DNA of 64,000 nucleotides from Bryoerythrophyllum caledonicum (lineage: Eukaryota > Streptophyta > Bryopsida > Pottiales > Pottiaceae), in contig OZ020522.1 of the NCBI GenBank assembly GCA_963971425.1, positions 2,702,168-2,766,167 of the forward strand, written 5' to 3'. This document shows, one piece after another, positions 109 through 64,000 of this stretch. The position numbers and the translations under genes are program-made. Below the pieces are notes generated by a model, which made no database searches, was not told the DNA's origin, and saw nothing but the letters and a program-made list of their open reading frames with translations. Each line of letters starts with the position of its first letter. Position 1 is the stretch's first letter.

Positions 109-728
109 ATGCCTAATATACTAAAAATACACTCTTCATCACATAAGAAAAAGGCCAAAATATACATCATACCTAACACCATAAAATTACAACCGGAATA
201 TGAGCACATTGCAAAATCCTTCGCACCTTTTCTAAAAAACACACACATATCTCACCACACACATAACACTACACATCCAAACATTACACGATACGTTCAA
301 CAAAAAAATATGCATCCATCACCCCACATTCTATATGCACTAGTAGTCACCACCCACCCACACATAGATGAATGTAACCATCTCCTAAATCCACATGGAC
401 CAATACACTACTACAAAATATACTAAACTTACAAAACCCACCAGAACGACACATTCACATTCCGCACCCATATATAGAATTCATGGAAAACAACCAAAAC
501 ATCATAAAACATGAAAACTCAATACATAAAAAACTATACGACTTCTTACATAGTCAAACCACACTTCCCTCAAGAGAAACAATAAACCTAAAATTCCCTT
601 ACCTCCCTAACAAACTCATAAATGAATCACTAAATTGTCTAGACCCTATACCAGAATACATCCACCCACCTCCACTTCCTCCCTACACCCCTCCTCAAAA
701 TCAAAACAGTAGATCAAACCAAGAAAAG

Positions 729-1505
729 ACATACATAGTCACATGGAATGCCTCCTCACTAAACACTGCCCTCCCTAGCTTACAAACTTTGATCACACAC
801 ACAGACACACCACCGGCCCTGATAGTTATACAAGAAACAAAGTTAACTGCCACAAAATCTACAAAATATATACAAAATATATTTCAAAACTATAAACTCA
901 TCTTTAATAATACACATGCACTTACCAAATGCATTCAACAACGGAGACCATACACACCGGGCCGCGGTGGCCTTCTTACACTAATACAGAAAAATCATGC
1001 CTTCCGGAGCAACATCAACAAAATCTCTATCCCAATGCACATATCACCATATATCCAAATAATCAAAATCACTAATCACCCACTACAACCGTGGCTAATC
1101 TTTCACATGTATATGCCATCCCATCCCGAAGATAATAGATTTATTTTAGACATACAAAACACTATTACATCCCAAATTAACAATAATCCCAATCATACAT
1201 ACCTATTATGTGGAGACTTCAATAGAGACATAGCGCTAATTGGCCGCCAAAATGGAAACCATCACACCTCCCCCCCAAAACATTGATTACCAATGGCGTC
1301 ACTTCACAGAAAACTTAAACTTCACTTACATCAATACCGATACACAATTCTCTAGACAAGGTGGCTATAATTACAGTGATTGGAGTCTAATAGACGGATT
1401 CTATATAAATACAAACAACAATACACAATACACCTCCACAACAGACAAAGATAGTATTCTCAACTCGGACCACTCACCCGTACAATTGCACATCCCAAAT
1501 AACAC
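729..1505 (+). pseudogene. LINE apurinic/apyrimidinic-type endonuclease domain, frameshifted
   Basis: This is the exonuclease-endonuclease-phosphatase fold used by LINEs to nick target DNA. Visible motifs are VTWNASSLN near the start, VIQETKL, GRGGLL, LLCGDFNRD near 1207-1233, SLIDGFYI near 1383, and the catalytic SDHSPV near 1467-1484. The frame that starts at ATG 483 fails just after the GDFN motif at a run of seven C (1270-1276) and resumes in the frame that runs to 2118. The homopolymer could be a true mutation or a sequencing slip. Confidence 0.85.
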
Positions 1506-2157
1506 ACTAATTAGTAGAACTCCTATAATCCCAAACAAAGACACTATACGCATACTCAACCCCATCTTAAAAACTAACATAGAAAAATTCAACACAAAAT
1601 TCTTCGAAGAAAACTCCGCACAAATAGACTCCCTCATAAACATTCTTGAAAATAATAGTCAATTAACACAAGCACAATGGCAAGAAGCATGCCACACCCT
1701 AGACAAACTCATCAATAAAATCTCTGATACACTAGAACAAACTTGTAGAGCACATCCAATACCTCAAATGACAAACCGAACTTCTCAACAAGGCGGGTAC
1801 CTACCCCGCAAACTTTCAAAAAATTGGAAACAACACTTAATTACATACCATACCATACGCAAAACCATTAGAATTGTAAAAAACAACCCTCAATGGCGTA
1901 ACCACCCCATATACAATGAACTACTAACTCTACAACACATCCAAATCCCTACTCCGCCGCCTCCGGACCTTCCCCACGATACATGGATAAAAGATATCGC
2001 GCAAATTGCAAAAAATGCCAACATACAAGCCCGGAAAGTAATCACAAAACACACCAAAGAAAACATTAAAAAAGCCATCTCAAAGTATAGACAACTATAC
2101 AAAATCAGCCCAAAATAAATTAACAAAAAAGTCTTTAAAAACCTTGAATCCCCGCCA

Positions 2158-3591
2158 ATGGACTGTATCACAGATCAATATAATAATATTCTAACTAGCC
2201 CCGAAGACATTGCGAATGAAATATTTAACCAACAAACAAAAACCAATAGACCAACAATACCAACATGTAATTACCAACCACAACATACAATAGAATGTAC
2301 ATGTGCAGTACGCCAATATCCATGGCATGACCTGGACAGCTATACCCTTGACAAACGGGGCGAATCTGAAATTCCACTTCATAAGTACTTCAACAGAGCC
2401 ACATACGACACATGCCTTCAAAATCTTGGTAATAATAAAGCCCCAGGCCCAGACCGCACACCAAACTCAATACTCAAAAACATGCCTCCAAGATTTCATA
2501 AACTATTATTCCTATTCTTTTTTTACTGCTATAAACAAAAACAAATACCAAACTCATGGAAATCGAGTACAACTATTTCACTATACAAAAAAGGCGACCC
2601 GTCCATGCTACCCAACCATAGGCCAATTGCACTAGCTAACACAATATATAAACTCTTTACTAGTACACTCACCTCCATACTATCCTCATACGGCGAAAAA
2701 TTCAAAATCCTACATGGTAGTCAAGAAGGATTTAGAGCAGAGAAAAGTACCGCACGACAAATACAAACCATAATAGCCGCACTAGAAGACGCAAAATTTA
2801 CTAACCAAGATATATACATACTATACGTGGACTTCAAAAATGCCTTTGGCTCAATTGACCATGCCCGACTTCTAGCAACAATGACGGACCTTGGATACCC
2901 AAAAGACGCAACTACACTTGTTGGAAACATCTATTCTCAATCATCTACTTGCTACACCGGGGAACACTTTGGAAAAACAAAATCTATACCCATCCAAAGA
3001 GGAACTATACAAGGGGAAACCCTCAGTCCATACCTATTCATTATATTTTTAGAACCACTACTTAGATGGCTAGAAAGAGGCAATAACGGAAATACTTTCG
3101 GCACATCACAAGTCACAATAAACTCCGCCGCATACGCGGATGACCTAGCCACCATAACTAACAAAATCAAATCAATCCAAATACAACTCAATAAAATTGA
3201 TAGATATTGTAAATGGGCTGGCATGGATGTGGGAATCCCAAAATGTGCCGCTACCGGATGCCCAAACAAATCTAAATTGAACCCTACCACTTTCAAAGCC
3301 CTACTGCAAACCGCTAACATCAACTACCGCAACCAACCAATTCCTATACTACACCAAAACGAACCATACATATACCTAGGTACAAATCTTGTTCCTTCAC
3401 TAAAATGGAAAATTCAAATTCACACTACAACCATAAAGCTTATCAAACAATGCAAAAAACTAACAACATGTCCGGCCACCATGAAACAAAAAATAAAAAT
3501 GGTTGATACCGTACTACGCCCAAGTGTGGCATACAGTTTTTATGGTGTACCATACTCTATGCCAGCCATAACAAACTTGACCAAAAAATAA
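2158..3591 (+). pseudogene. LINE reverse transcriptase domain
   Basis: A 477-codon open stretch with the ordered RT motifs: NKAPGPD, LYKKGDPS with NHRPIAL, GFRAEKSTARQ, catalytic YVDFKNAF (2824-2847), IQRGTIQGETLSPYLF, catalytic YADD (about 3133-3144) and YLGTNL. It is in the same frame as the preceding APE/linker stretch, separated only by the stop at 2116-2118, so the two were one polyprotein. The C-terminal thumb continues in another frame after about 3585. All RT catalytic aspartates are intact, but the ORF as a whole is not. Confidence 0.92.
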
Positions 3592-4692: not shown

Positions 4693-5763
4693 ATGCAACC
4701 CCGAAAAGATATCCTTACATCCTCAAACACAATTCTAATAGATAACGATCAAGCGCATCTATATGAAGAAAATGGCCTACACTTACACACCATCCCCATT
4801 ACTAGACTCCAGTGGCTATGGAATCAATACAATACAAAATTACAAACCTCCACAAACATCGAACCAACGACCCAATCCTTTGAAACCGAACTAATCTCAG
4901 TATACCAAAGGTATAAATACCAAATACCAAAAACTGTCCCCCTAAAAAATGCACAATACACAATACTCACTCCCATTTTAGACTCACTAATCTCATCCTT
5001 TAACATTGAGCAATCATATTTTTCTTCCTCGGTCACATGTTCTACCAAACTAAAAAAATTCTACTCACCTTATGAAACAGACAAAATATTCGGATCCCTA
5101 GGAAAGGCCTTTGACTATAAATGGACCGACAATGGTATAGCTCACCCTCACAACGAGAAAGATATTGAACAAACAATACATTGGGCTCGACTTGCCGCCA
5201 AACAAGATCCAAATAACACAAATACAATCATCATCACACCGAACAACAATTGGTACCAAAACAACAACCCACACTCAAACCCATTTCTAGATTCCCATAT
5301 CATTACATTATTTGAAGCAGACACAATACCATACGAAGAACCCACTATTCCACCCGAGCTAAAAAAACCCCGAATCGAGCCATCTACACTACAAATACTA
5401 TGTGTCCATCATCAAAATCAAACCCTTGGCTCCCTCGAACAAATTACGGAACTCACCTCCATAACAGACAATCTAGACATACAGAGACCATACACAAAAC
5501 TAGCCCCACCAACACCTACACAAACCCCTGTAAACAAAAGTAAAAAGTGGTCAAAACTAAATTATATCAACAATACAATAAACTACTCCATCACACCCCC
5601 CCTCTTCCAAACTACCCAACTCATACCACACCAAAATTTAACCCCGCACATAGCTATTACATTGATGGCTCCTTTAAACCACCAGAACAAATTAGCCCGG
5701 GCTCCTGGCGCAGAGAAAAAGCTGGATATGGCATATATAACTCTACCAAGGAAATTAAACTAA
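4693..5763 (+). pseudogene. LINE segment between RT and RNase H, possibly methyltransferase-like
   Basis: A 356-codon open stretch between RT and RNase H. Its central part has the pattern FGSLGKAFDYKW, then AHPHNEKDIEQTIHWARLAA, a hydrophobic strand (TIIITPNNNWY) and HIITLFEADTIPYEEP. From memory this resembles the methyltransferase-like inserts of some green-algal retroelements, where the AHPHN position reads like an NPPF motif. Here that motif is degenerate, so activity is doubtful. The last 70 codons overlap the start of RNase H in another frame, showing a frameshift near 5547-5763. LINE copy 2 keeps only the final third of this segment. The domain assignment is inference. Confidence 0.45.
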
Positions 5764-6090
5764 CCAAAAGACTCCATGGATTACAAAATATCCTCAGAGC
5801 AGAACTCATGGCCATTCACAAAACACTACAAATCATCACAACAAAATACAAAAATGAACCCGCACATATATTCACCGATTGTATAAATGCACTTTACCTA
5901 CTAAACACTCAAATAACACACCCTACCCTTCATAATAGCCACCCAATAAAATCATATTAACATCAATGGTCCAAATGTTACAAAACCGTACACAAATCAC
6001 AACCCTCCATAAAGTGAGAGCCCATGCCAACATTGATGGCAACGAACAAGCAGACAAATTAGCTAAAAAAGGCCGTGAAAAAACACACAA
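5650..6090 (+). pseudogene. LINE RNase H domain
   Basis: RNase H removes RNA from the cDNA hybrid during retrotransposition. The four acidic positions are visible: YIDGSF (D about 5664), AELMAI (E about 5803), IFTDC (D about 5877) and GNEQADKLA (D about 6052). The domain is split by a stop at 5958-5960 after IKSY; it resumes from the ATG at 5966. Presence of RNase H places the element among RNH-bearing LINE groups. Confidence 0.85.
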
Positions 6091-6429
6091 AAATGCCAAA
6101 GACCCACACGAGCATGCCCATGCTACCCCATACTACTTTCAAAAAGAAGAATGGCCTTCCAAAGAAGATATCCCTGACAAAGGCCCAATTAGATTTTTGG
6201 GCAAATATCTCAAAAAACAAGACCTCTACAACAACCTAGATACAATCTCAGAAAATATTCCTAACATAGAAAAATGGACTAACAATAACGACATAGACAA
6301 TGAACTCTCTACAAATTTTTGGAAAAACCCCAGCATCTCAGACTTGCAAATAACATGCCTCATCAAATTCCGTACTGGGCAGTATATGGGAAACGCTCGC
6401 AAACAACTCTTCTTTGGAATAGAAAGATT

Positions 6430-7116
6430 CCCATCCATAACATGCCTCATATGTCCCTCAACGGACCCCGACACATGGCTTCATGTTCTACTCAAATGCC
6501 AGAACCACCACATACACTCCCTAATTGTTAAAAGACATAATAAAGCGGTATGGGAAGTCCGAAAACTAATCACCTCCTACTAAAATCGAGATGTTTTATA
6601 CTAATGAACGCCGGCACTTTTAATAACAACCCACAACAAAATACGGTCCCCCCTTGGCTACTCCCATGTTCATGCATGACCCAAAGATGTCATTGCAACG
6701 CTCGGCTCAAACCGGACATTCTTTGTGTTAAAGGTTTACCATATAATGACCCACCACCAAATAACATCAACCAAGATTACACCATTCAATTCATTGAATT
6801 CACATATTGCAACGATAGATTTTCCCTGGAAACAATCCAAAATAAAATTGATAAATACCAACCCCTTATTGATGACATCATTGCTCTTGGGTGGAACATG
6901 GACCCCCTTATTGTAATAACATCTGGCGCTCGTGCCACCTCCTTTATCCCCTCTATGAATACTCTTGAAGATGTCTTCAAAATTCCCATTGAAACAATTA
7001 AAACCACCTTTAAAAACATTAACACCATTGCTATTCAACATGCCATGTCCATTCTTTTGCATAAACGCAAAATCAAAAACAACCAAACCCTCCCCGATAC
7101 ACAGGACCCCCCTTAA
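6430..7116 (+). pseudogene. LINE C-terminus: CCHC-like knuckle, RHN motif and REL-like endonuclease
   Basis: The stretch has CLIC then HVLLKC and KRHNKAV, a pattern of LINE C-termini that precedes an endonuclease-like fold. After a frame change near 6550-6590 it reads LKPDILCVKG, then IEFTYCNDRF, KIDKYQPLIDD, GW and PLIVITSGARA. The PD...ExK...K..Y spacing fits a restriction-like PD-(D/E)xK domain. In LINE copy 2 the middle motif reads IEFKYCND, giving a proper ExK; here K has become T. An element with both APE and REL-like nucleases is unusual. The fold call rests on motifs only. Confidence 0.6.
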
Positions 7117-7312
7117 ACTCTTCCCCCACCTTGACTTTTCCTGACTTGTTTGTTTTAAGGTTTGAGATTGCTTACTTGTTTTGTGGTTGGTTAGTTGGCT
7201 AGTTGCTTTGTTACGGATGGTTGGTTGGTTGGTTGGTCTGTGGTTCTTTGGCTACTTGTTACATAGTGTCTATCCTCAAGAGAGGGGAGTAGTTCCAGCT
7301 TGCTTTCCTTGT

Positions 7313-7400
7313 CCAGTGGGCATGGTCTTAGTAAGTGGAACGAACAGACACTTTATTCACGCCGGCCTCCTTCGGTGGCGGGCGTTATTCTTCTTCTTCT
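7313..7400 (+). other. LINE 3' terminal hairpin and TTC tail
   Basis: The end contains a short GC-rich inverted repeat (CGCCGGCC against GGTGGCGGGCG) followed by TTCTTCTTCTTCT. The same end occurs in the 85-bp insertion at 44629-44713 and in diverged form at the end of LINE copy 2. Such 3' structures are what LINE RTs commonly recognise for priming. Confidence 0.7.
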
Positions 7401-8821
7401 AGTTGATGAAGACTTTGGCTAGCTAATTTAGTTTTCAGTGGTGATTTGGACTTTTGTCCTAGAGATCCTTCCCGGGCATTCTTTTGACGCATCATGATGA
7501 CTCCGCCCCTAAACGAGGCCGTGACGTATTTAAACCGGCTTGTTCGGTACAAAGTGACTTCAAGGAATTTAGTTTCAAGCGCCATGTTTTGCTTAAGTAT
7601 GGCAATGGATCAGACAATGTATTGGGCTGCTTGCACCGCATGCCGCCGTTTGTAGTCAAAGGGCTAGACTACTAGTCTTCTGCTATTGGGGAATCAAAAG
7701 GCATGGCATATATAACTTCCATACAAGAGCATGGCACGAGGTGCTTCAATTGCTAGACACTAGCCTTAGTAAACCATTGGTATAGGACGATGGTTATAGA
7801 CACATCTAAGAGGCCCTATAATTTTCAAGCTTGTTGTAGGCAACACTGTGACGCAAACTCAAATTTATGATTCGACGAGTTGTTCCTGGAATATGACGTC
7901 CTCCATGGAGCTATTCCAAGAAGCTACAGATGCGTTGCATCTACTGAGGTCTTATTTTTGTGTGCGCTACGATGATTGCATATCCATATGTATGAGTACG
8001 GTACATGAGTTTGCACATGGCAGATGGACATGATCCTGGTGATCTCTATCTCTCTATCTCTTCTCTTCTCTCTATATTGTAAAAGGGGTGTGGGTGAGCC
8101 CGGTGATGATATGTGGCAAATACTAGAGAGTGAGACTTAACTAGGCATTTAAGTAGGAGATAATTGGAAGATATTTTCGAGGAGGAGGATGGGGACTTAA
8201 ATTGGGGCGGCAACTCAAGTCTTTTAATTGTACTTTTTACTTTTACAATTTTAGGTAACTTACCTAAACTTACATTATCCATTGGTGACAACAAATCTAT
8301 ATGCTAGTATATTTATAAAATAATATATTTTTTGAACTAGACAAAAGCAAATAAAAAATCAACAAAACATGCATTTATAAGCTAGAAAAATACAGTTACA
8401 AGCACTGAACTAGACTACCCTCCTGCCGAAATTCACCTAAATGATTGCAAGCTTGGGGATAGCCTTACCAATAGAACGTTCTTTGTAAGACATACAATAG
8501 CCCAAAGTATTGTTCCATGTAGCATGGGCACAAAAACCAAAGCTGCCATGAACACTACACTAATAATGACATTTAGTATTACATGAAGATTAGTGTTATG
8601 ACTCCTTTCTACCATGCCATGCTAAATGTAAAGAAAGTGAAGATTGGTGTTGCAAAGAACAGTGCCAGCACCGAAATTTTGAAACCAACCTAAACCACCA
8701 AAATTTTGAAACCAATGTGAACCACCGAAACCCTAAACCTGGTCACCAACACTTCAACCCTAAAAACCATGGCCACCATCTGCCAAACGAGCACCACAAA
8801 TACTGGAATTTAATTGCGGAG
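7401..8821. other. Gene-free stretch with repeat debris
   Basis: No convincing coding region. It holds a CT-rich run near 8045-8080 and, near 8530-8620, fragments with the words ACTACACTAATAATGACATTTAGT. These resemble the terminal repeat of the MITE at 23954-24177. The rest is AT-rich sequence without a pattern I could assign. Confidence 0.6.
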
Positions 8822-9091
8822 ATTTTAGTTTTGGAAGGAGATGTGTCGAAAATCTACACTGGAGTTTATTTGTGACGAGACTATTTAATTCTTGGTGGTG
8901 AAATTTTCTGTTTAGGGGTTTCATTACGAGGTAAGGTGTGTATTTTTTTTTCAAACATTTTAGTTTTGGAAGGAGATGTGTTGGAAATCTACGCTAGAGT
9001 ATATTTGCGAAGAGACTATTCAATTCTTGCTGGAGGAATTTTCGGTTTAGGGGTTTCATTACGAGATAAGGTGTGTATTTTTTTTTCAAAG
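8822..9091. repeat. Two-copy tandem duplication, unit about 135 bp
   Basis: Two adjacent direct copies start at about 8822 and 8957. Each opens with TTTTAGTTTTGGAAGGAGAT and ends with GTAAGGTGTG or GATAAGGTGTG plus a T run. They differ at scattered sites. No function is evident. Confidence 0.8.
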
Positions 9092-31703: not shown

Positions 31704-32214
31704 GTTCTTAGTGTAATTTGGACGTAAACCATTATTACTCCAATTTCGCTTCGATCCCCTACATTCCAACTGCAGAAGCAGTATCTCTTCAATGACATGG
31801 ACTAGGCACGCATGTACCAGCGTATCACATTTCACGTGTTACGAAGTGGCAATTCTTCCGAATTTGCTCTATCTGGATTTATTCTAGATAAACATCTATT
31901 GAAGCTATTCAAAGAAGGCTTGAAACATGAAAATAATCTCACAGAGATATATATCATAGGGGTTTTGATTTTATTTGGAGCTGCAAGGGCACAATTGATT
32001 CATGAATGAACTTGCTACAAATCGGAGGACAGTAGAACACTACCACGACATAAGAAAATTAGCTTTCTCGAAAGGAACAACTTAAGTAGACAGATAAAGA
32101 AGTTACCATTTGATTGCAGTGCTCACAAGCGCTCCAACCTTGAAGGTTCAGCTGCAACATCTGGCTAGGAACGGCAAGGGAAGCAAAGTAAGAAAAGGTG
32201 AGGCTAAAGACATA

Positions 32215-32758
32215 GATATGGATGCACACAGAAACACAACTAGACATGGATGCCCACAGAAACACATCAAAAACACAACTAGACATGGATGCCCACAGAA
32301 ACACAACTAGACATGGATGCCCACAGAAACACAACTAGACATGGATGCCCACAGAAACACAACTAGACATGGATGCCCACAGAAACACATCAAAAACACA
32401 ACTAGACATGGATGCCCACAGAAACACAACTAGACATGGATGCCCACAGAAACACAACTAGACATGGATGCCCACAGAAACACATCAAAAACACAACTAG
32501 ACATGGATGCCCACAGAAACACATCAAAAACACAACTAGACATGGATGCCCACAGAAACACATCAAAAACACAACTAGACATGGATGCACACAGAAACAC
32601 AACTAGACATGGATGCCCACAGAAACACATCAAAAACACAACTAGACATGGAAGTCCTCAAAAACACAACTAGACATGGAAGTCCTCAAAATCACAACCA
32701 GACGTGGATGCCCTCAAAAACACAACCAGACATGGAAGTCCTCAAAAACACAACTAAA
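32215..32758. repeat. Minisatellite, 28-bp and 39-bp units
   Basis: The core ACATGGATGCCCACAGAAAC alternates with ACAACTAG, and some units carry an extra ATCAAAAACAC (11 bp). About 17 units are present; the last four diverge to ATGGAAGTCCTCAAAAACAC. Long open frames on both strands here are by-products of the repeat. It is not a CRISPR array: there are no unique spacers. Confidence 0.95.
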
Positions 32759-32788: not shown

Positions 32789-32861
32789 TTCCGTTGCCGG
32801 GACTCGAACCCGGGTCGCTCGGGTGAGAGCCGAGTATCCTAACCATCTAGACTACAACGGA
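32789..32861 (-). tRNA. tRNA-Glu (CTC anticodon)
   Basis: 73 nt. The acceptor arms TCCGTTG and CAACGGA pair, with discriminator A. The D arm reads TAGTCTAGATGGTTAGGATA, the anticodon loop CTCTCAC on a CTCGG/CCGAG stem, and the T arm has GGTTCGAGTCC. Internal A and B boxes are intact, and no intron or encoded CCA is present. It looks functional. Confidence 0.95.
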
Positions 32862-35024: not shown

Positions 35025-35128
35025 CACAAGTTGTGCATCTGAAAAATCTTGAGAATCGACATGTATTTATGGAGACCTCTTGCATTTCAAGACACATTGT
35101 GATTGAATAAGATTGCTCTTGATTAGCT

Positions 35129-36154
35129 ATGGCTCCTAGAAGGACTCTTGCTGAACGTAAGTTAGTTCTTCAGATGCATGAGAGAGGGAATTCGTACTCC
35201 GAAATTTCAGCGGTTCTAGGCATCTCTCGAAGCACTTGCCATGCTATTGTGCGGAGGTTTACAATGAGAGGTCATTTGAGAGATGCTCCTTCACAAGGGA
35301 GACCTCGAATTCTTGATGAACGTGGTGATCGTGAGGTTGTAAGGTTGTTGAATGCACCATCTAATGGTACAGCTGCAGCAGTGGGTAGAGAAATGCGATC
35401 TCAAGGATTGGATTTGAGTGATGATACAATTAGAAGATGTCTTCAGAGGCAAGGATTGAGAGCACGAGTGAAAACTAAGAAGCCATTCTTGTCAAAGAAA
35501 CACAAAGCACGTCGATATGCATGGGCAAAGAAGTGTAGGCATGCAAGTTGGATGGACTGGAGTTATGTGGTTTTTTCAGATGAGTCAAAATTCAATTTGT
35601 TTGGCTCAGATGGGAGGCAGTATTGTTGGAGGAAAAGAGGAGAGCATCTTTTAGATCAGCATGTGCAACCTACTATCAAATTTGGAGGTGGAAACATTAT
35701 GGTTTGGGGATGTATGACTTGGGAGGGAATTGGCAACCTTCGTCTTATAGAAGGAGACATGGATAAGTTTGTGTATCGTGAAATTTTGGAGATGGAGCTC
35801 ATGAATACTATACACATGTATGATTTAGGAGAGGAGAATGTTATTTTTCAGCACGACAACGATCCCAAACATACTTCTAAGTATGTTACAGATTGGTTGT
35901 TAGCACAGAAGTTTCAACTAATTTGGCATCCGGCTCAATCTCCTGACTTGAATCCTATAGAACACCTTTGGAATGAAGTAGATCGTCGTATGAGAATGTC
36001 AAAGAAGAAACCCACTAACAAGAAGGATTTGTGGGAGAAATTGCAAGAAATTTGGTATAGCATTGAGATTGATACCGTGAGGAAATTGATCATGTCTATG
36101 CCTGAGAGAGCTGCAGATGTTTATCAAGCAAAAGGTGGCTATACACGATGGTAG
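35129..36154 (+). CDS. Tc1 transposase, DD34E
   Basis: 341 residues, intronless, intact. N-terminal paired-like DNA-binding region: a first helix-turn-helix (about residues 10-45, with YSEISAVLGISRSTCHAIVR) and a second (about 65-110), joined by a GRPR hinge (57-60). Catalytic residues: Asp151 in VVFSDESKFNLF, Asp243 in FQHDNDPKHTS, Glu278 in SPDLNPIEHLWNEV; 34 residues separate the last two. The basic stretch KTKKPFLSKKHKARR (115-129) could be a nuclear localisation signal. It catalyses cut-and-paste transposition at TA. The start is the only ATG that precedes the whole domain set. Confidence 0.96.
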   Translation: MAPRRTLAERKLVLQMHERGNSYSEISAVLGISRSTCHAIVRRFTMRGHLRDAPSQGRPRILDERGDREVVRLLNAPSNGTAAAVGREMRSQGLDLSDDTIRRCLQRQGLRARVKTKKPFLSKKHKARRYAWAKKCRHASWMDWSYVVFSDESKFNLFGSDGRQYCWRKRGEHLLDQHVQPTIKFGGGNIMVWGCMTWEGIGNLRLIEGDMDKFVYREILEMELMNTIHMYDLGEENVIFQHDNDPKHTSKYVTDWLLAQKFQLIWHPAQSPDLNPIEHLWNEVDRRMRMSKKKPTNKKDLWEKLQEIWYSIEIDTVRKLIMSMPERAADVYQAKGGYTRW

Positions 36155-57958: not shown

Positions 57959-58910
57959 GGCTAAGTCGTCAGAAGTTGGAAACTAGAAAGACAACAAAAA
58001 GTCATTCCTAGAAGAAGGGTCAAACCTCCATCGTGGTCCTTGAAGGGTTAATTTGAAGGTTTGTAGTTTTGCTGTAAAATTGATCCACTGAATTAATACT
58101 GTGTTTCCAACGTGATTTCCTTAGAAGAGGATGCGTTCTTCAATTACTTGATTATTGCATCTTGTTACAATGAGCTTGGATCCAATCCATTGACCGTGCT
58201 TTGGAGCGATATTTTTAGACTCAAACATTATTGGGAAACCTATTTTGACATATAGTTATAATGCAGGTATTCTCAATCCATCTATGGATTTTTAGCAACT
58301 AAAGGGGGGATTGCTATTTTGCGTGCCTAATTTTGCGAGCTGTGAGCTGCGAGCCTAGGTTTGCGAGCGTAGAAATTAAAAAGTTGTAAAATTTTGGAGA
58401 TAAAGTAAAAGTAATAGAGCGTAGATAAAGTTTTCAGAAACATAAAGAAAAAATTGAAGGGTCGAAAAAAAAATGTGGGAAAAAAATGAAAAATAAAGGA
58501 CAAAAAAGTGAAGATGAAAGTCAAAGAGAAAAGGGGAGGGCCCTATAGCCGTGGAAACCTGTCAACTTGTGGCGTCAATATGAATGAAGTCCAAAACAAT
58601 AAGGCGACCAGGTTTAGGGTGAGGGTGACCTATACAACGGCAATATTGTAGGTACCCTAAGGCCGTGGGATGTGGACCGTTGATTTGGGTGGATTGTGGT
58701 AAATTCAAACGGAGTAAAACTCTACAGTTTCTTGTGGAAGGGAAGCAACTTAAATAAACTAACTACAGAAGAGTAATCTCAGAAATTGAACACAACAAAG
58801 GCACATTGCTAGACTGAGTGTGGTGGTCAATTTAGGATGTGGTAACAGAACTTCGAAACCCAAAGATATACTGAAAAAGATCTAAGACAACATCAAATTT
58901 GTTGATAGAA
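57959..58910. other. Gene-free stretch downstream of the ParB/methyltransferase-like gene
   Basis: AT-rich with a purine-rich run (58380-58540). It should contain the 3' UTR of the minus-strand gene. Nothing else recognised. Confidence 0.55.
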
Positions 58911-61900
58911 CTACGAATCCGTTGAAGCTTCTATGGAAGATGAGTGCGAACAAATCTCAACCTCAGCTTCATCATCAATGAAACAACGAACACAACTGTC
59001 GTAACAAGGAATAGACAAAGTCGGGGATGGAGATTCTGCCATAGCCTGGAGAGTTGCAGTTGCCGCGTCCCAAGGCACCATGTTGAAGTCTCGGTGAGGA
59101 GATAATTGCAGCTCAATTAACCTGTCCATAACAACCACAAAATACTGAATTATGGACTGCATGAAAGAATGCAGTTCTAAGGGGCATCAATGAATGAAAC
59201 TTACTTACTCAATCTAGTTCTTTTTGCGACTCTCCGAATAGAGACGTCCACGTCAATAAGAGGAGGAGCTTGAGCTTGAGAGGGAACACGAGCACTTGGA
59301 GGACGCCCATGAAGAAACGGCCTCAATTTTGCATTGAAAACTGAAATGTCGTCGTCGAGTGCAACGATGTGGCGGCCCGCTGATTTGCAAGCACGTATGG
59401 AATTCCCTGCAAGAGAATAACAGAAGTTCAGTATGGAACTGAAAAAAGTAGATATGAGGAGCCACTGATGGATGGAGAATTTGAAGAAAAAACAAACCAA
59501 CAGAGGCAAAGGCATCGAGGACGAGGGAGCCAGGTTCCGTAAGCGCCTCAATGAACATCTCAATGAAGACTGCGTCCTTCTCACGGGGGCCCCTCCACGG
59601 AATAGAGCCGTTCATGGATTGAGATACATTAGTGGTAAAATTGAAGAGTACATCCGAATCAGCTATTCCCATGCCCAACTCGGTGTGATCTGCATTCCTA
59701 GCAATGTGAAATTGATCCGCTCCAAGCTTCTCATGAATATAAAGTTGAATTTTAAATCGCTTGCTCTGAAATGAAGAAAAGAAGGCAGTGAAAACGAGGA
59801 TCAATATATAAGTGAGGATGAAAACGAGGATTAATATATAAGAGCAAAAGATTAATAAAAAACGTGGACATACCTGAATTCCAGGAGTGAAGAACGACGA
59901 CAAGGGAAGGTCGTTAATGCCCCACCACTCACCGATTGGCTGAAAGCCATAAGCAGCCGCAAAAGAGAGTACATCAGCTTTAATGTTGGGGACGTCGGGG
60001 ACAAACACAAGAACTGCTCCCTTTGCTTGAAGAAAGTACTCGGCGAATTCAAAGAGCGTCTCCGTGTCCTCCACAGCGTACTCATTCCAGATTGGAATTG
60101 TGCTAGAGTTCACGCAAACTCCTAGAACCATCATTCCGTCCTTAAGATCTCCAATAATCAAATCAAAGCCGCTGTGGGGGCAATGAGTAGAAAGTGACAT
60201 TGTCCCAGTCTCATTCTTGACCTGAAAAAAAATGAAGTTTAAACCAAAAAGAGATGGTGAGAGTAGAAAATAGCAGTATAGGATTCAACGGAGGTATGGA
60301 ATAAACGCATAGATGGATGTATGCACTGGAGTTGCTGCCGACATCGGCAATGACAGAGAGGGCGCAAGAAAAGTGAATATAGAACCGAAGTGTATGGAAC
60401 ATGAGAAACTTCACCATGCGTGCAAATAGAAAAAAATTAAAGATTAACACAATCAGAGGCACAACCAACATTCGAAGGAAATACATAAACATCATAATTT
60501 ACAAGAAGGAAACAAAAGAAATAAATCAATTGTGGTGCCAAAATCGAAAGGAAATGAAAGGTAATGATAGTGTTTGTACGGATAAAAGACGGCAACTACA
60601 CCTCTAAAAATTGAACAACGATTGCATGATAACTTGATAAGACTACAATATCAAATTCATGAGAAAAGAAAGTGCAGCTTAAGACGAAAAGAATACCTGA
60701 AGGGCAAAGTCGTTTAGCCCTTGGAGACTGGGATGTACGGATGGAAGAGCCTCCATAATCTTTCTGATGCTGGAGTCCGCAACAAAAACACGTGAATGAA
60801 CAGTGTTGGAAGGGTGGCTCTGTGACTTCTTTGAAGCCGCTCGCCTCTTCAACTTCTCTGAAATGATGGAGATGGGGCTTAAAAGGTCAACTTCAGGATC
60901 AGGTGTCAGTGCCACAGGGCAACGTGGTGGCTGTGAGTCGATGAACTCCGGAGAGGCCTCTAGAACGTCCACATTATAGTCAGTCACCTCAATCAAGGGG
61001 TCTGCCGCTACTTTCTGGCTGGATTCAGCAACGAAAGCCAGGGCTACCTGTTTGATTCTCGCTTCTTCTTCCGCAGCCGCCACTTTGGCCCTTAGAGCTA
61101 CTTCTGCTTCGGTAGCCTTTTTCTTAGCCTCCTCCTCGGCTTTCCGCTTTGAGATCCGTGGTTTTATAGCATTGGGTTTGGCAGGTGAAGATAGAACAAC
61201 CACTTCCGTGCCACTGAAAGCAGGTTGAATCCCGTTCCTCAGTGAAATCTCAAAGGACGGAGGACTACTCACAGGGCAGTCCAAGTACCAACCACAAGTT
61301 GCAAAATGCTCTTCTCCCCACCTCTTCGCAATCTCCTCGGTGATCATGCAATTGTCACTCCTTCTATCGAGGTATCCAGGAAAAAAGGCTAGAGTCTTCG
61401 TTACAACATTCCGAGGGAGAAGGACAAAGTTATAGTACCTGTAGAGTACTCTGGAAACCGCCTCGGCCAAACCAACCTGGTCCTCAGGTTGTTTATTTTT
61501 GTGAGTCTTGTTTGCCTCGAAGTCCTGAACAAATGCCAAATCCCAAAGTTGGATTCGCATCTCTTCGACATAATCAGCAAGACTCTTGACCACAGATTGA
61601 CCCGCTGGATGATAGTCAATGGTGACATTAAGATCGGAAAGGGAGGCTGAAAACAAGTCTTGAACTTCACTTGCAATCTGGGAAAGGAAAATTGAGAATT
61701 GTCAGAGAATTCAATGAAACACATGTGCCCACAACAACAGCAATGCTAACCTGCGCCCACCAAGTCGCCTTGTGCAGCCACTCTGGAAATGAGTGGTCGG
61801 CGAACTTCGAACGCGGAAAGCGAACTGCTGCACGAAGAGATGCAGGCATATTCCAACGCTGCAACCACTTCACCTTTGTAGCGGACTCCATAATTGAAGT

Positions 61901-63534
61901 AGCTAAGTACCAGAGCTTCTCCTGGGACATTTCCGGGTCATCTTCGTGGTTCTCATAATGCCTTCGAATTTCTTCGAGAAAATGAGGCGAGTGCTTTGGA
62001 TCAGCAATAGGTAGCTGCTTCATAACTTCAGACCGTCTGTCCTTCCTTATCTTAGCTACAGCTCTTCCAATGACCTCATGAAGCTTCGCAGCATTCCACT
62101 GGCTTGATTTCTCCGGAAACTCTTCTTTAAACTTCCTTGTCGCATGGGCAACCGCGTCGCCTAAATCTTGCTGCAAGAATTACAGATAAAGAGTTTGATC
62201 AGAAAATGAAAATAATAATAGATGACAGGCAAAGTCAACTGCGAGGAGGCTTATTAAGAACGTTCTCTTACATAACGGAATTTGCGCAATATTTGTTAAT
62301 GGAGGCGCAACAAATTAACGTTCATTCGAGTTAATTGAAGAAAATTCTAGAAGTCAAAGAAATTATCTTGGTCCCTGGGGGAGTCCAAATCGGCACCTCT
62401 GTGGAGGTTCAACAATTAGTGACTAAAGTAACAGAAGTAATCATTCATGGAACAAAAACCATTTCAGGATGTGCTGATGTCGGCACTACTAGCACGGTGC
62501 CTCTTCAAGCGGAAAGTATGCTCGAAGAAGAAGGGGCTGAAGCCGGCACCTCAATCCAAGAGAAGCTAAAATTGTGAGACTGAACGCAAATGGAGATGAA
62601 AAATCTATGCTCTACCTGATAGAGCACACCGATTAGTGCATCCACTGTCAATGTGTACCACGTGTGATGATTAGCAGACTTTTGCTTCTTGTCAGCACTC
62701 GCTAAGTCTTCCTTCGATACTAGATTCTCAAAAAACGTCAACGGTTGACCTGCGATTCCTTGCATGCGGTACAACTTGTGGACAAGGTTAAGTTTAACAT
62801 GCCCAGTTTGATTTCTCCTGCACATCACATAAAAACCAATAAATATCTAGGAAGGCAATGGAAGAGATCTAGACATTGTCGAGTAGCTTACCAATTCACT
62901 TGATGGAGCGCCGTTTGAAGCCTTCCCGCCTGACCATCAACAACAAGAATGATGGACTCCACCGCATAGTGCCATGCTGAATCAGTTGCATGATCTCTGT
63001 TGATTATTGGCAACCATGCTGCAAGACGGTGGTTACCGTCCCAAACAAAGAACATCATTCCAGAGAACTGCTTCCAATCTTCCTCCTTCATTAACTCTAC
63101 TTCAAAGGCATTGTTAGCCTCAACCCAAAACGGGCTCCAATTTGATTTTATATGGTCAGAGACAGCCTTGGATCTGCCTTCGTTATCATGCATCGCAATG
63201 TAGAACACTCTTTGGCCATCCATATATCCGGTGCTTACAAACTGAGCCCCAAGTGCCATAACATCGTTTTTTAAATATGGCCTAACAGCAGCTAAGGGAA
63301 GCATTCGGCACAGAGGAATATTTAGCTTCGACTTGTTCCTTGGTTTGAACCGAAGTTCGTCAAGGACAAGACTTGTATTAGCGGACTCCATAACCACCAA
63401 CTTATCCATTTCTCTACTGAGGTCCTCCGCTGACATCTCTAAACCAAAAACACTATTTTCAAGCACGTCATCTTCACCCGGATAGTCGTTGACCAGAACA
63501 ATAATACGATCAGCTGCCTCCCCAACCTCCGAAC
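58911..63534 (-). CDS. ParB-like domain fused to DNA methyltransferase-like domain (8 exons; 5' end unresolved)
   Basis: Exons on the minus strand: 63534-62892, 62817-62616, 62170-61751, 61677-60697, 60221-59874, 59765-59498, 59406-59205, 59121-58911. They stay in one frame and give about 1091 residues with GT-AG introns. N-terminal part: IPLCRMLPLAAVRPY, LGAQFVSTGY and FFVWDGNHRLAAW (about 63050-63010), the layout of ParB/sulfiredoxin-type domains. The middle is helical; 61050-61180 encodes a Lys/Glu/Ala-rich coiled coil. C-terminal part: FDLIIGDLKDG, then WRGPREKDAVF and LVLDAFASVGNSIRACKSAG, the IV-before-I order of class-beta N4/N6 amino-methyltransferases. The catalytic DPPY position reads DLKD, so methylation is doubtful. 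Upstream coding sequence probably continues to 63690 (GEETASAG-like) but I could not fix the splice or start. The pairing is typical of phage and bacterial proteins; introns show long residence in a nucleus. Confidence 0.75.
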
Positions 63535-63856
63535 CTAATAAAATGAGGTCAGACTACAATTCAGAAATTAATCCAAAATTTAAACACCATCATCAGTACT
63601 TGCCATAAAAATATGCGGTTGTGAGCGTTGAGATGATCCACCATAAGCCCCAGCACTTGCCGTCTCCTCTCCCTCCGAAGCTAATCATCAAAATCCAAGC
63701 AAATGAGAACAAATTATTTGCAAATAAGATCAAAATCAGAAGTCATCACGCAAATTCCAACCAAGAAGCTCATGCAATTGAGCGTCACCGATATCCAAAT
63801 CTTCTCGGAGACAATGTCGATTCAAACAGCTTCACCGGAGCCAGGCACTCAGTATC

Positions 63857-63987
63857 GACAACTCCTCCCGCCGGGGGGCTGCCGACATTGGCAGCTCCGG
63901 AGTGCGGGCACTTTCCTAGCGGGAAGCACCCGCACTCGAGAGCTGCCGATGTCGGTAGCTCCTCGGCAAAGGAGCGGTCGAGACATG
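63857..63987. repeat. GC-rich foldback, arms about 55 bp
   Basis: The left arm CTGCCGACATTGGCAGCT and the right arm (reverse complement CTACCGACATCGGCAGCT) continue through GAGTGCGGG to a short loop near 63918. Mismatches are few. Each arm also contains its own small palindrome (GCCGACATTGGC). It lies upstream of the ParB/methyltransferase-like gene. Confidence 0.8.
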
Positions 63988-64000
63988 GCAAATTGTTAGG

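Follow-up and report, generated by a model that had tools for sequence, protein, structure and literature searches.

A ParB-like and methyltransferase-like accessory gene in a provisionally Mutator-like transposon of Bryoerythrophyllum caledonicum, with a candidate palindromic target

Whether a spliced plant gene that joins a ParB-type motif to a methyltransferase-derived domain serves the host or a mobile element is the question raised by positions 58911-63534 of a 64,000-nucleotide stretch of Bryoerythrophyllum caledonicum (Pottiaceae; assembly GCA_963971425.1, contig OZ020522.1, positions 2,702,168 to 2,766,167), referred to below as the window. The initial annotation had taken the gene for an old bacterial or phage transfer, retained by the host for DNA recognition or chromatin marking. 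The gene sits in a DNA transposon of 15,146 bp and is not a single-copy host gene, and this transposon spread recently in the plant genome. We consider it reasonably probable that this is the accessory gene of a recently spread transposon resembling Mutator-like elements (MULEs), whose protein would bind palindromes of its own element in the manner of VANC proteins.

Exon 1 of the gene has at least 150 matches across the 437-Mb genome (the best 150 of 1,760 first-look candidates), and a single-copy host gene is thereby ruled out. The two ends of the element are terminal inverted repeats, 56 bp of which match at 91%; for the right terminal repeat, 418 candidates in the genome yielded 40 scored matches. 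Nine other copies align with the window element over much of its 15 kb and have the same right terminus (10-kb flanks compared). Their identity to the window element is mostly 88-98%, with a drop to 71-82% in several copies over a stretch upstream of exon 1. For eight of the ten copies both termini could be placed: every one of the eight is bounded by inverted repeats and flanked by a perfect 10-bp target-site duplication whose sequence differs from copy to copy; the left ends of copies c4 and c7 were not found, and both copies stand outside this count. Inverted repeats and target-site duplications of fixed length, the marks of a cut-and-paste transposon with terminal inverted repeats, are thus both present. 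The initial annotation named no strand; its boundaries are those of the eight-exon model, and the enclosing mobile element of 15 kb, which extends past the window's end, had been missed. The parts of the element lying in the window are as follows:

58306..64000, - strand: in-window part of the transposon; the whole element extends from 58306 to L009:9919 (G000:C10:2775618), past the window end
58306..58368, - strand: right terminal inverted repeat, GGGGATTGCTATTTTGCGTGCC... on the + strand, an inverted match to the left end
58296..58305, no strand: right copy of the 10-bp target-site duplication, CAACTAAAGG on the + strand; the left copy is L009:9920-9929

Upstream of the accessory gene, in divergent orientation and beyond the window, lies a transposase-like gene of two exons (L009, about 4982-8980). 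Of 2,554 candidate matches to it in the genome, 122 were scored. A divergent exon-1 match is found within 25 kb of 86 of these 122, three have one in another orientation and 33 are without one; random positions on the large contigs, the control for this pairing, gave a mean of 2 and a maximum of 8 in 200 draws. Nine transposase matches share one score and have uninterrupted frames of 757 amino acids (C8:6022924, C2:27750808, C10:15028549 and six more), which suggests a very recent burst of one subfamily. Compared with another copy, the window's own transposase gene has a disrupted frame and a stop codon in frame, and because of these the window element is probably non-autonomous, though its accessory gene is intact.

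MULEs are described in the cited passages as having target-site duplications of 8-11 bp together with terminal inverted repeats, zinc fingers being common in them (PMC6446971; PMC5225508), and the 10-bp duplication found here falls in this range. The motifs DSTY, FMADSAQANW, CLFH and CNLAE are invariant in the three aligned transposase relatives; their role as DDE and C-x2-H residues and the fingers of the SWIM/WRKY-GCM1-like type were assigned by eye. Searches against Pfam with the transposase pieces of the window element and of three spliced relatives gave nothing beyond chance matches, and the search of PDB profiles gave no meaningful match for the transposase. Among the 150 listed places of the MULE-type DDE profile PF10551 (the best 150 of 384 candidates), none has any of the 122 transposase matches less than 3 kb away. 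Since a Pfam match and an overlap with PF10551 are both missing at the transposase, membership of the transposon in the Mutator-like superfamily is provisional.

The accessory gene occupies the minus strand, 63534-58911, and consists of eight exons bounded by GT..AG, which form one open frame of 1090 amino acids and a stop counted from 63534, in agreement with the eight in-frame exons and about 1091 codons annotated initially:

62892..63534, - strand: exon 1, holding the ParB-like DGNHR motif
62616..62817, - strand: exon 2, from the splice model and copy alignments
61751..62170, - strand: exon 3, from the splice model and copy alignments
60697..61677, - strand: exon 4, with a conserved start and a variable charged linker at its end
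59874..60221, - strand: exon 5, methyltransferase-like domain with a degenerate motif IV (GDLKDG)
59498..59765, - strand: exon 6, methyltransferase-like domain in which motif I begins (DAFASV)
59205..59406, - strand: exon 7, end of motif I and the helix after it
58911..59121, - strand: exon 8, including the stop codon

This model is trusted chiefly because the exon structure is kept across genomic copies. Of 18 family copies run through a spliced aligner, 14 gave the eight exons, c4 in a shifted arrangement. The remaining four are L035, which stops with its stretch, L037, aligned through exon 5 only, c10, which is disrupted, and L039, recovered as nine pieces. Six of the 18 copies are free of stops and frameshifts. 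Exon lengths are near-equal among the family copies and introns are variable, with protein parts just about 32-44% identical in divergent copies. The protein alignment comprises 12 of the 18 copies (c3, c4, c6, c7, c8 and c10 omitted); alignment A2 comprises seven of those 12, the near-identical c2, c5 and c9 and the broken L037 and L038 having been dropped. A spliced gene in which a domain derived from a methyltransferase is fused to one bearing a ParB-type motif is thus upheld in a plant assembly of nuclear scale.

Short palindromes are massed on the same element. The 16-bp palindrome CTGCCGAYRTCGGCAG has 335 exact sites genome-wide, with none for the reversed control and 0.13 expected from base composition at an assumed 42% GC. 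The window's element contains eight exact sites and 19 at up to three mismatches, nine of the latter off the tandem array; the remaining 58.3 kb of the window contain no CTGCCGAYRTCGGCAG site at up to three mismatches. Of 50 listed sites, all on contig C1, 49 have an exon-1 or transposase match no more than 5 kb away, and even the 10-kb zone around such matches makes up just 1% of the genome. Among the 12 sites of the best-match listing, none is in an exon of the accessory gene; they are located between the two genes, upstream of exon 1 and in intron 4, and the transposase intron has two more matches to the palindrome core. Three of the sites in the window are:

60335..60350, no strand: palindromic site in intron 4, TTGCCGATGTCGGCAG in gene sense
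63879..63894, no strand: palindromic site upstream of exon 1, one mismatch to CTGCCGAYRTCGGCAG
63943..63958, no strand: palindromic site upstream of exon 1, one mismatch to CTGCCGAYRTCGGCAG

In copy c7 (L020/L021, G000:C10:15836860-15856859) the array has grown to about 6 kb, and a 7.1-kb stretch includes five exact sites and 110 with no more than three mismatches. Subfamilies with 69-73% exon-1 identity have the same palindrome in tandem units, the remaining sequence of which compares with the window element at E >= 0.16 only. That the palindrome is kept where the neighbouring sequence is unrelated speaks for selection acting on the site.

A diverged palindrome goes with a diverged subfamily. 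In a subfamily with 67% exon-1 identity (L032, L151, L149), the repeated palindrome is GTGCCGACAGCGGCAC, for which 100 genomic sites were found, with none for its control; 77 of the 100 are within 5 kb of a listed exon-1 or transposase match. Among the listed exon-1 matches with identity up to 67%, 30 of 54 have a GTGCCGACAGCGGCAC site within 5 kb; among those with 70% or more, none of 85 has one. The converse holds for CTGCCGAYRTCGGCAG in the listed stretch of C1, where it is near all seven exon-1 matches of at least 73% identity and near none of the nine of at most 68%; this partition used 15 of the 50 listed places, namely the cluster ends and the single. By eye, GTGCTGATGTCGGCAC at 62471-62486 on the + strand, in intron 2, resembles the motif of the second subfamily and the element's own, and is possibly an older target-site relic.

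The C-terminal 270 residues of the accessory protein are related to class-beta N6/N4 methyltransferases, as found by profile and sequence searches. The Pfam profile N6_N4_Mtase (PF01555) is matched by six of seven family members, the best at 3.5e-7; the window protein itself matches at 1.8e-4, which is under the curated cut-off. Further matches of this half are DpnA in PDB (0.0017) and phage methyltransferases (1e-5). Canonical class-beta enzymes have [DNS]PP[YFW] at motif IV and DPFxGSGTT at motif I. In the window protein, motif IV is present by position as FDLIIGDLKDG and motif I reads DAFASVGNS. The annotated motif I region and the order IV then I are therefore retained, but none of the 12 aligned copies (four of them near-identical) has the catalytic tetrapeptide at motif IV, where the sequence reads [AG]D[LF]KDG or [AG]DIPDG. 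Because the catalytic motif is lost and purifying selection nevertheless persists, the methyltransferase fold is probably non-catalytic and DNA-contacting. A scan of viral contigs with the methyltransferase part gave one short match, and a single-sequence AlphaFold model of exons 5-6, read through the in-frame intron, had a mean predicted local distance difference test score (pLDDT) of 51, too poor for a fold search.

Evidence for the ParB-like half consists in its motif. WDGNHRL is invariant in the 12 aligned copies and aligns with the GxxR-type box and the next strand of a phage ParB profile, built on ten diverse phage ParB regions; the alignments (hhalign 16.5 and 15.3, local) are non-significant. 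The annotated DGNHR motif stands, and the significant profile match that a ParB-type N-terminus should give was not obtained. No usable or significant ParB match was found in profiles of Pfam, PHROGs, NCBIfam, PADLOC and PDB or by tblastn against phages, and scans of viral contigs turned up no relative of exon 1. NCBIfam sat3 (five of nine members, best 0.00068) and PADLOC Csx3 (one of nine, 0.0041) were weak matches judged to be due to chance. The AlphaFold model of exon 1, also from a single sequence, had a mean pLDDT of 34, again too poor for a fold search. Nine phage regions around methyltransferase matches were covered; PF02195, sought in ten records, gave one match, under the cut-off, leading to the phage ParB-methylase L052, of which 80 close relatives were left aside.

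The accessory protein is under purifying selection between subfamilies, its methyltransferase part included. Of 12 pairs analysed for the ratio of nonsynonymous to synonymous substitution rates (dN/dS), four were measurable subfamily pairs, three were saturated overall and five were recent. In the four measurable pairs, dN/dS is 0.13-0.16 overall, 0.14-0.18 in the methyltransferase part and 0.04-0.08 in the middle part, the lowest values being those of residues 215-560 (exons 2 to 4); in the exon-1 part it is 0.07-0.09 in three pairs, the fourth being saturated there. These values are rough, since overall dS is 0.6-1.3. The five recent pairs have overall dN/dS of 0.21-0.80.

According to the favoured explanation, the accessory protein would bind palindromes on copies of its own element, with contacts made by three regions: the N-terminus resembling ParB, the conserved middle part, and the methyltransferase fold, which would now serve DNA contact instead of catalysis. 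Binding would keep element copies accessible or counter host silencing, as VANC does on VANDAL, and with divergence of a subfamily's protein its palindrome would have diverged too. Binding and protection from silencing are both proposed because the layout of the element parallels VANC/VANDAL. The chances that the protein binds the candidate palindromes of its own element are about even, and an anti-silencing outcome of such binding is rather doubtful. Of the functions annotated initially, recognition is plausible, namely of the transposon's own DNA, whereas marking lacks the methyltransferase motif on which it depends. A more far-reaching proposal is that a eukaryotic transposon reinvented self-recognition of the ParB-parS kind, the ParB-like and catalytically dead methyltransferase protein loading at palindrome clusters and marking self copies, with co-diversification of protein and palindrome; we rate this as quite unlikely.

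Several points weigh against the favoured explanation. The score of the ParB profile alignment was equalled in 24 of 200 column shuffles. The figure of 335 sites is a whole-genome count, the neighbourhood being known for the 50 listed sites on C1, and the exon-1 and transposase match sets are the best-scored copies (150 of 1,760 and 122 of 2,554, respectively). The partition of proteins and motifs follows lineage and could reflect shared descent instead of co-adaptation; 24 of the 54 listed low-identity exon-1 matches have no exact GTGCCGACAGCGGCAC within 5 kb, 23 of the 100 GTGCCGACAGCGGCAC sites are away from any listed match, and a transposase match of the window's kind, at 91% identity, lies no more than 5 kb from the site at C7:11789818. 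In the closest recent pair, the window's own copy and c2, dN/dS is 1.25 in the methyltransferase part and 1.96 in the linker, on few changes; ratios above one fit what can happen after insertion. The MULE label, provisional as it is, stands on 10-bp duplications, inverted repeats and motifs seen by eye, with a transposase that has no Pfam match. Finally, the binder of the palindromes could be the transposase or a host factor.

This last possibility belongs to a wider alternative, in which the palindromes are sites of the transposase or of a host factor, or hairpin-forming satellite units, and the accessory protein is employed otherwise, for instance as an integration aid like mudrB, which is apparently needed for integration according to the part of the source consulted (PMC6446971). 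Many palindromes do lie in a tandem array with a period of about 127 bp, hugely grown in c7, and paired sites off the array share similar flanks of about 100 bp. However, the palindrome recurs in unrelated repeat units and is also found as lone sites in intron 4 and the transposase intron, and none was seen in the terminal repeats, the expected place of transposase binding; we hold this alternative to be unlikely. An active N4-cytosine or N6-adenine methyltransferase marking its own element, as proposed for a brown-algal Sola1 protein, would agree with the class-beta fold and its recognisable motif I, with the same architecture as outlined in PMC12477816 and with palindromic sites that look like methyltransferase targets. 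It is nevertheless improbable in view of the missing [DNS]PP[YFW] and of the altered motif I in the window protein. Retention of a single old bacterial or phage transfer as a host gene, the origin first annotated, fits a gene that is spliced, intact and conserved, but is contradicted by the high copy number, the transposon ends with their duplications and the linked transposase, and is extremely improbable. The palindrome-binding accessory protein of a transposon thus remains the explanation that we prefer.

Other features were noted in the window and the assembly. A LINE-like element (long interspersed nuclear element), recognised by eye at 378-3591 on the + strand and perhaps extending to 5763, has endonuclease-like and reverse-transcriptase-like frames and the motif AYADD; the first 6 kb of the window, around it, are extremely asymmetric between the strands (GC skew -0.33 to -0.56, AT skew about +0.3). 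A transposase of the Tc1/mariner type, also identified by eye, is located at 35123-36154 on the + strand, with 343 amino acids open, the motifs SDESKF and SPDLNPIEHLW, and an apparently intact frame. A minisatellite of 28-bp units AAACACAACTAGACATGGATGCCCACAG at 32213-32756 adjoins the only tRNA call (tRNA-Glu, 32789-32861). The assembly contains two different rbcL genes (L040, G000:C821; L041, G000:C590), one with accD downstream; the best PDB relatives of the assembly's rbcL are RuBisCO large-subunit chains, probably mainly from land plants, in keeping with a plant assembly. Two rbcL genes may mean two plastid genomes, and contamination or a mixed sample is possible.

Fusion of the two domains is known from prokaryotes, an example given in the cited source being the ParB-methylase Bce_0392 (PMC5512222). 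The phage ParB-methylase L052 resembles the accessory protein in having an N-terminal ParB-type domain and a C-terminal class-beta methyltransferase with motif IV before motif I, but is 415 amino acids long instead of 1090 and keeps DPPY and DPFGGSGST; the profile comparison of the N-terminal part was non-significant. The closest published architecture is that of Sola1-1_Ec32 of Ectocarpus, described in the passages available as a 21.5-kb element in which a ParB-like and N4/N6 methyltransferase protein of 1104 amino acids lies opposite the transposase, with green and red algal relatives mentioned (PMC12477816). Both domains in one protein of similar length, a transposase on the opposite strand and a giant transposon (21.5 versus 15.1 kb) are common to the two. 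By description, the algal element belongs to the Sola1 superfamily, whereas 10-bp duplications and MULE-like features in a plant are found here; the catalytic motif is lost here, and clusters of palindromic sites are not mentioned for Sola1-1_Ec32 in those passages.

Among the titles listed from the open-access literature, outside which most subscription papers fall, none concerned a gene of this kind from a land plant, within a MULE-like element or paired with a palindromic target. The combination of ParB-like and methyltransferase domains has thus already been published for a brown alga, and the 16-bp palindrome tag seems to be new. For the published algal protein, binding target and function were merely suggested; many copies and at least two motif-bearing lineages, each with a candidate binding site, are available here, which makes the question directly testable. 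With the catalytic motif gone, the published idea of self-methylation loses ground, at least in this plant.

VANC proteins, as reported in the parts of the literature consulted, bind short motifs in noncoding tandem repeats of their own VANDAL MULEs and induce loss of methylation, related VANCs having different motifs (PMC5735166; PMC10398659). An accessory gene in a MULE-type element, a short motif massed in the element's own noncoding tandem repeats and diverged motifs in relatives are shared with the present system. In contrast, VANC is not described there as derived from ParB or a methyltransferase, and the motif of VANC21 comprises 9 bases (YAGTATTAY) as against the 16-bp palindrome. The element of B. 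caledonicum could be another example of a transposon that recognises itself through a motif, beside that of VANDAL and VANC.

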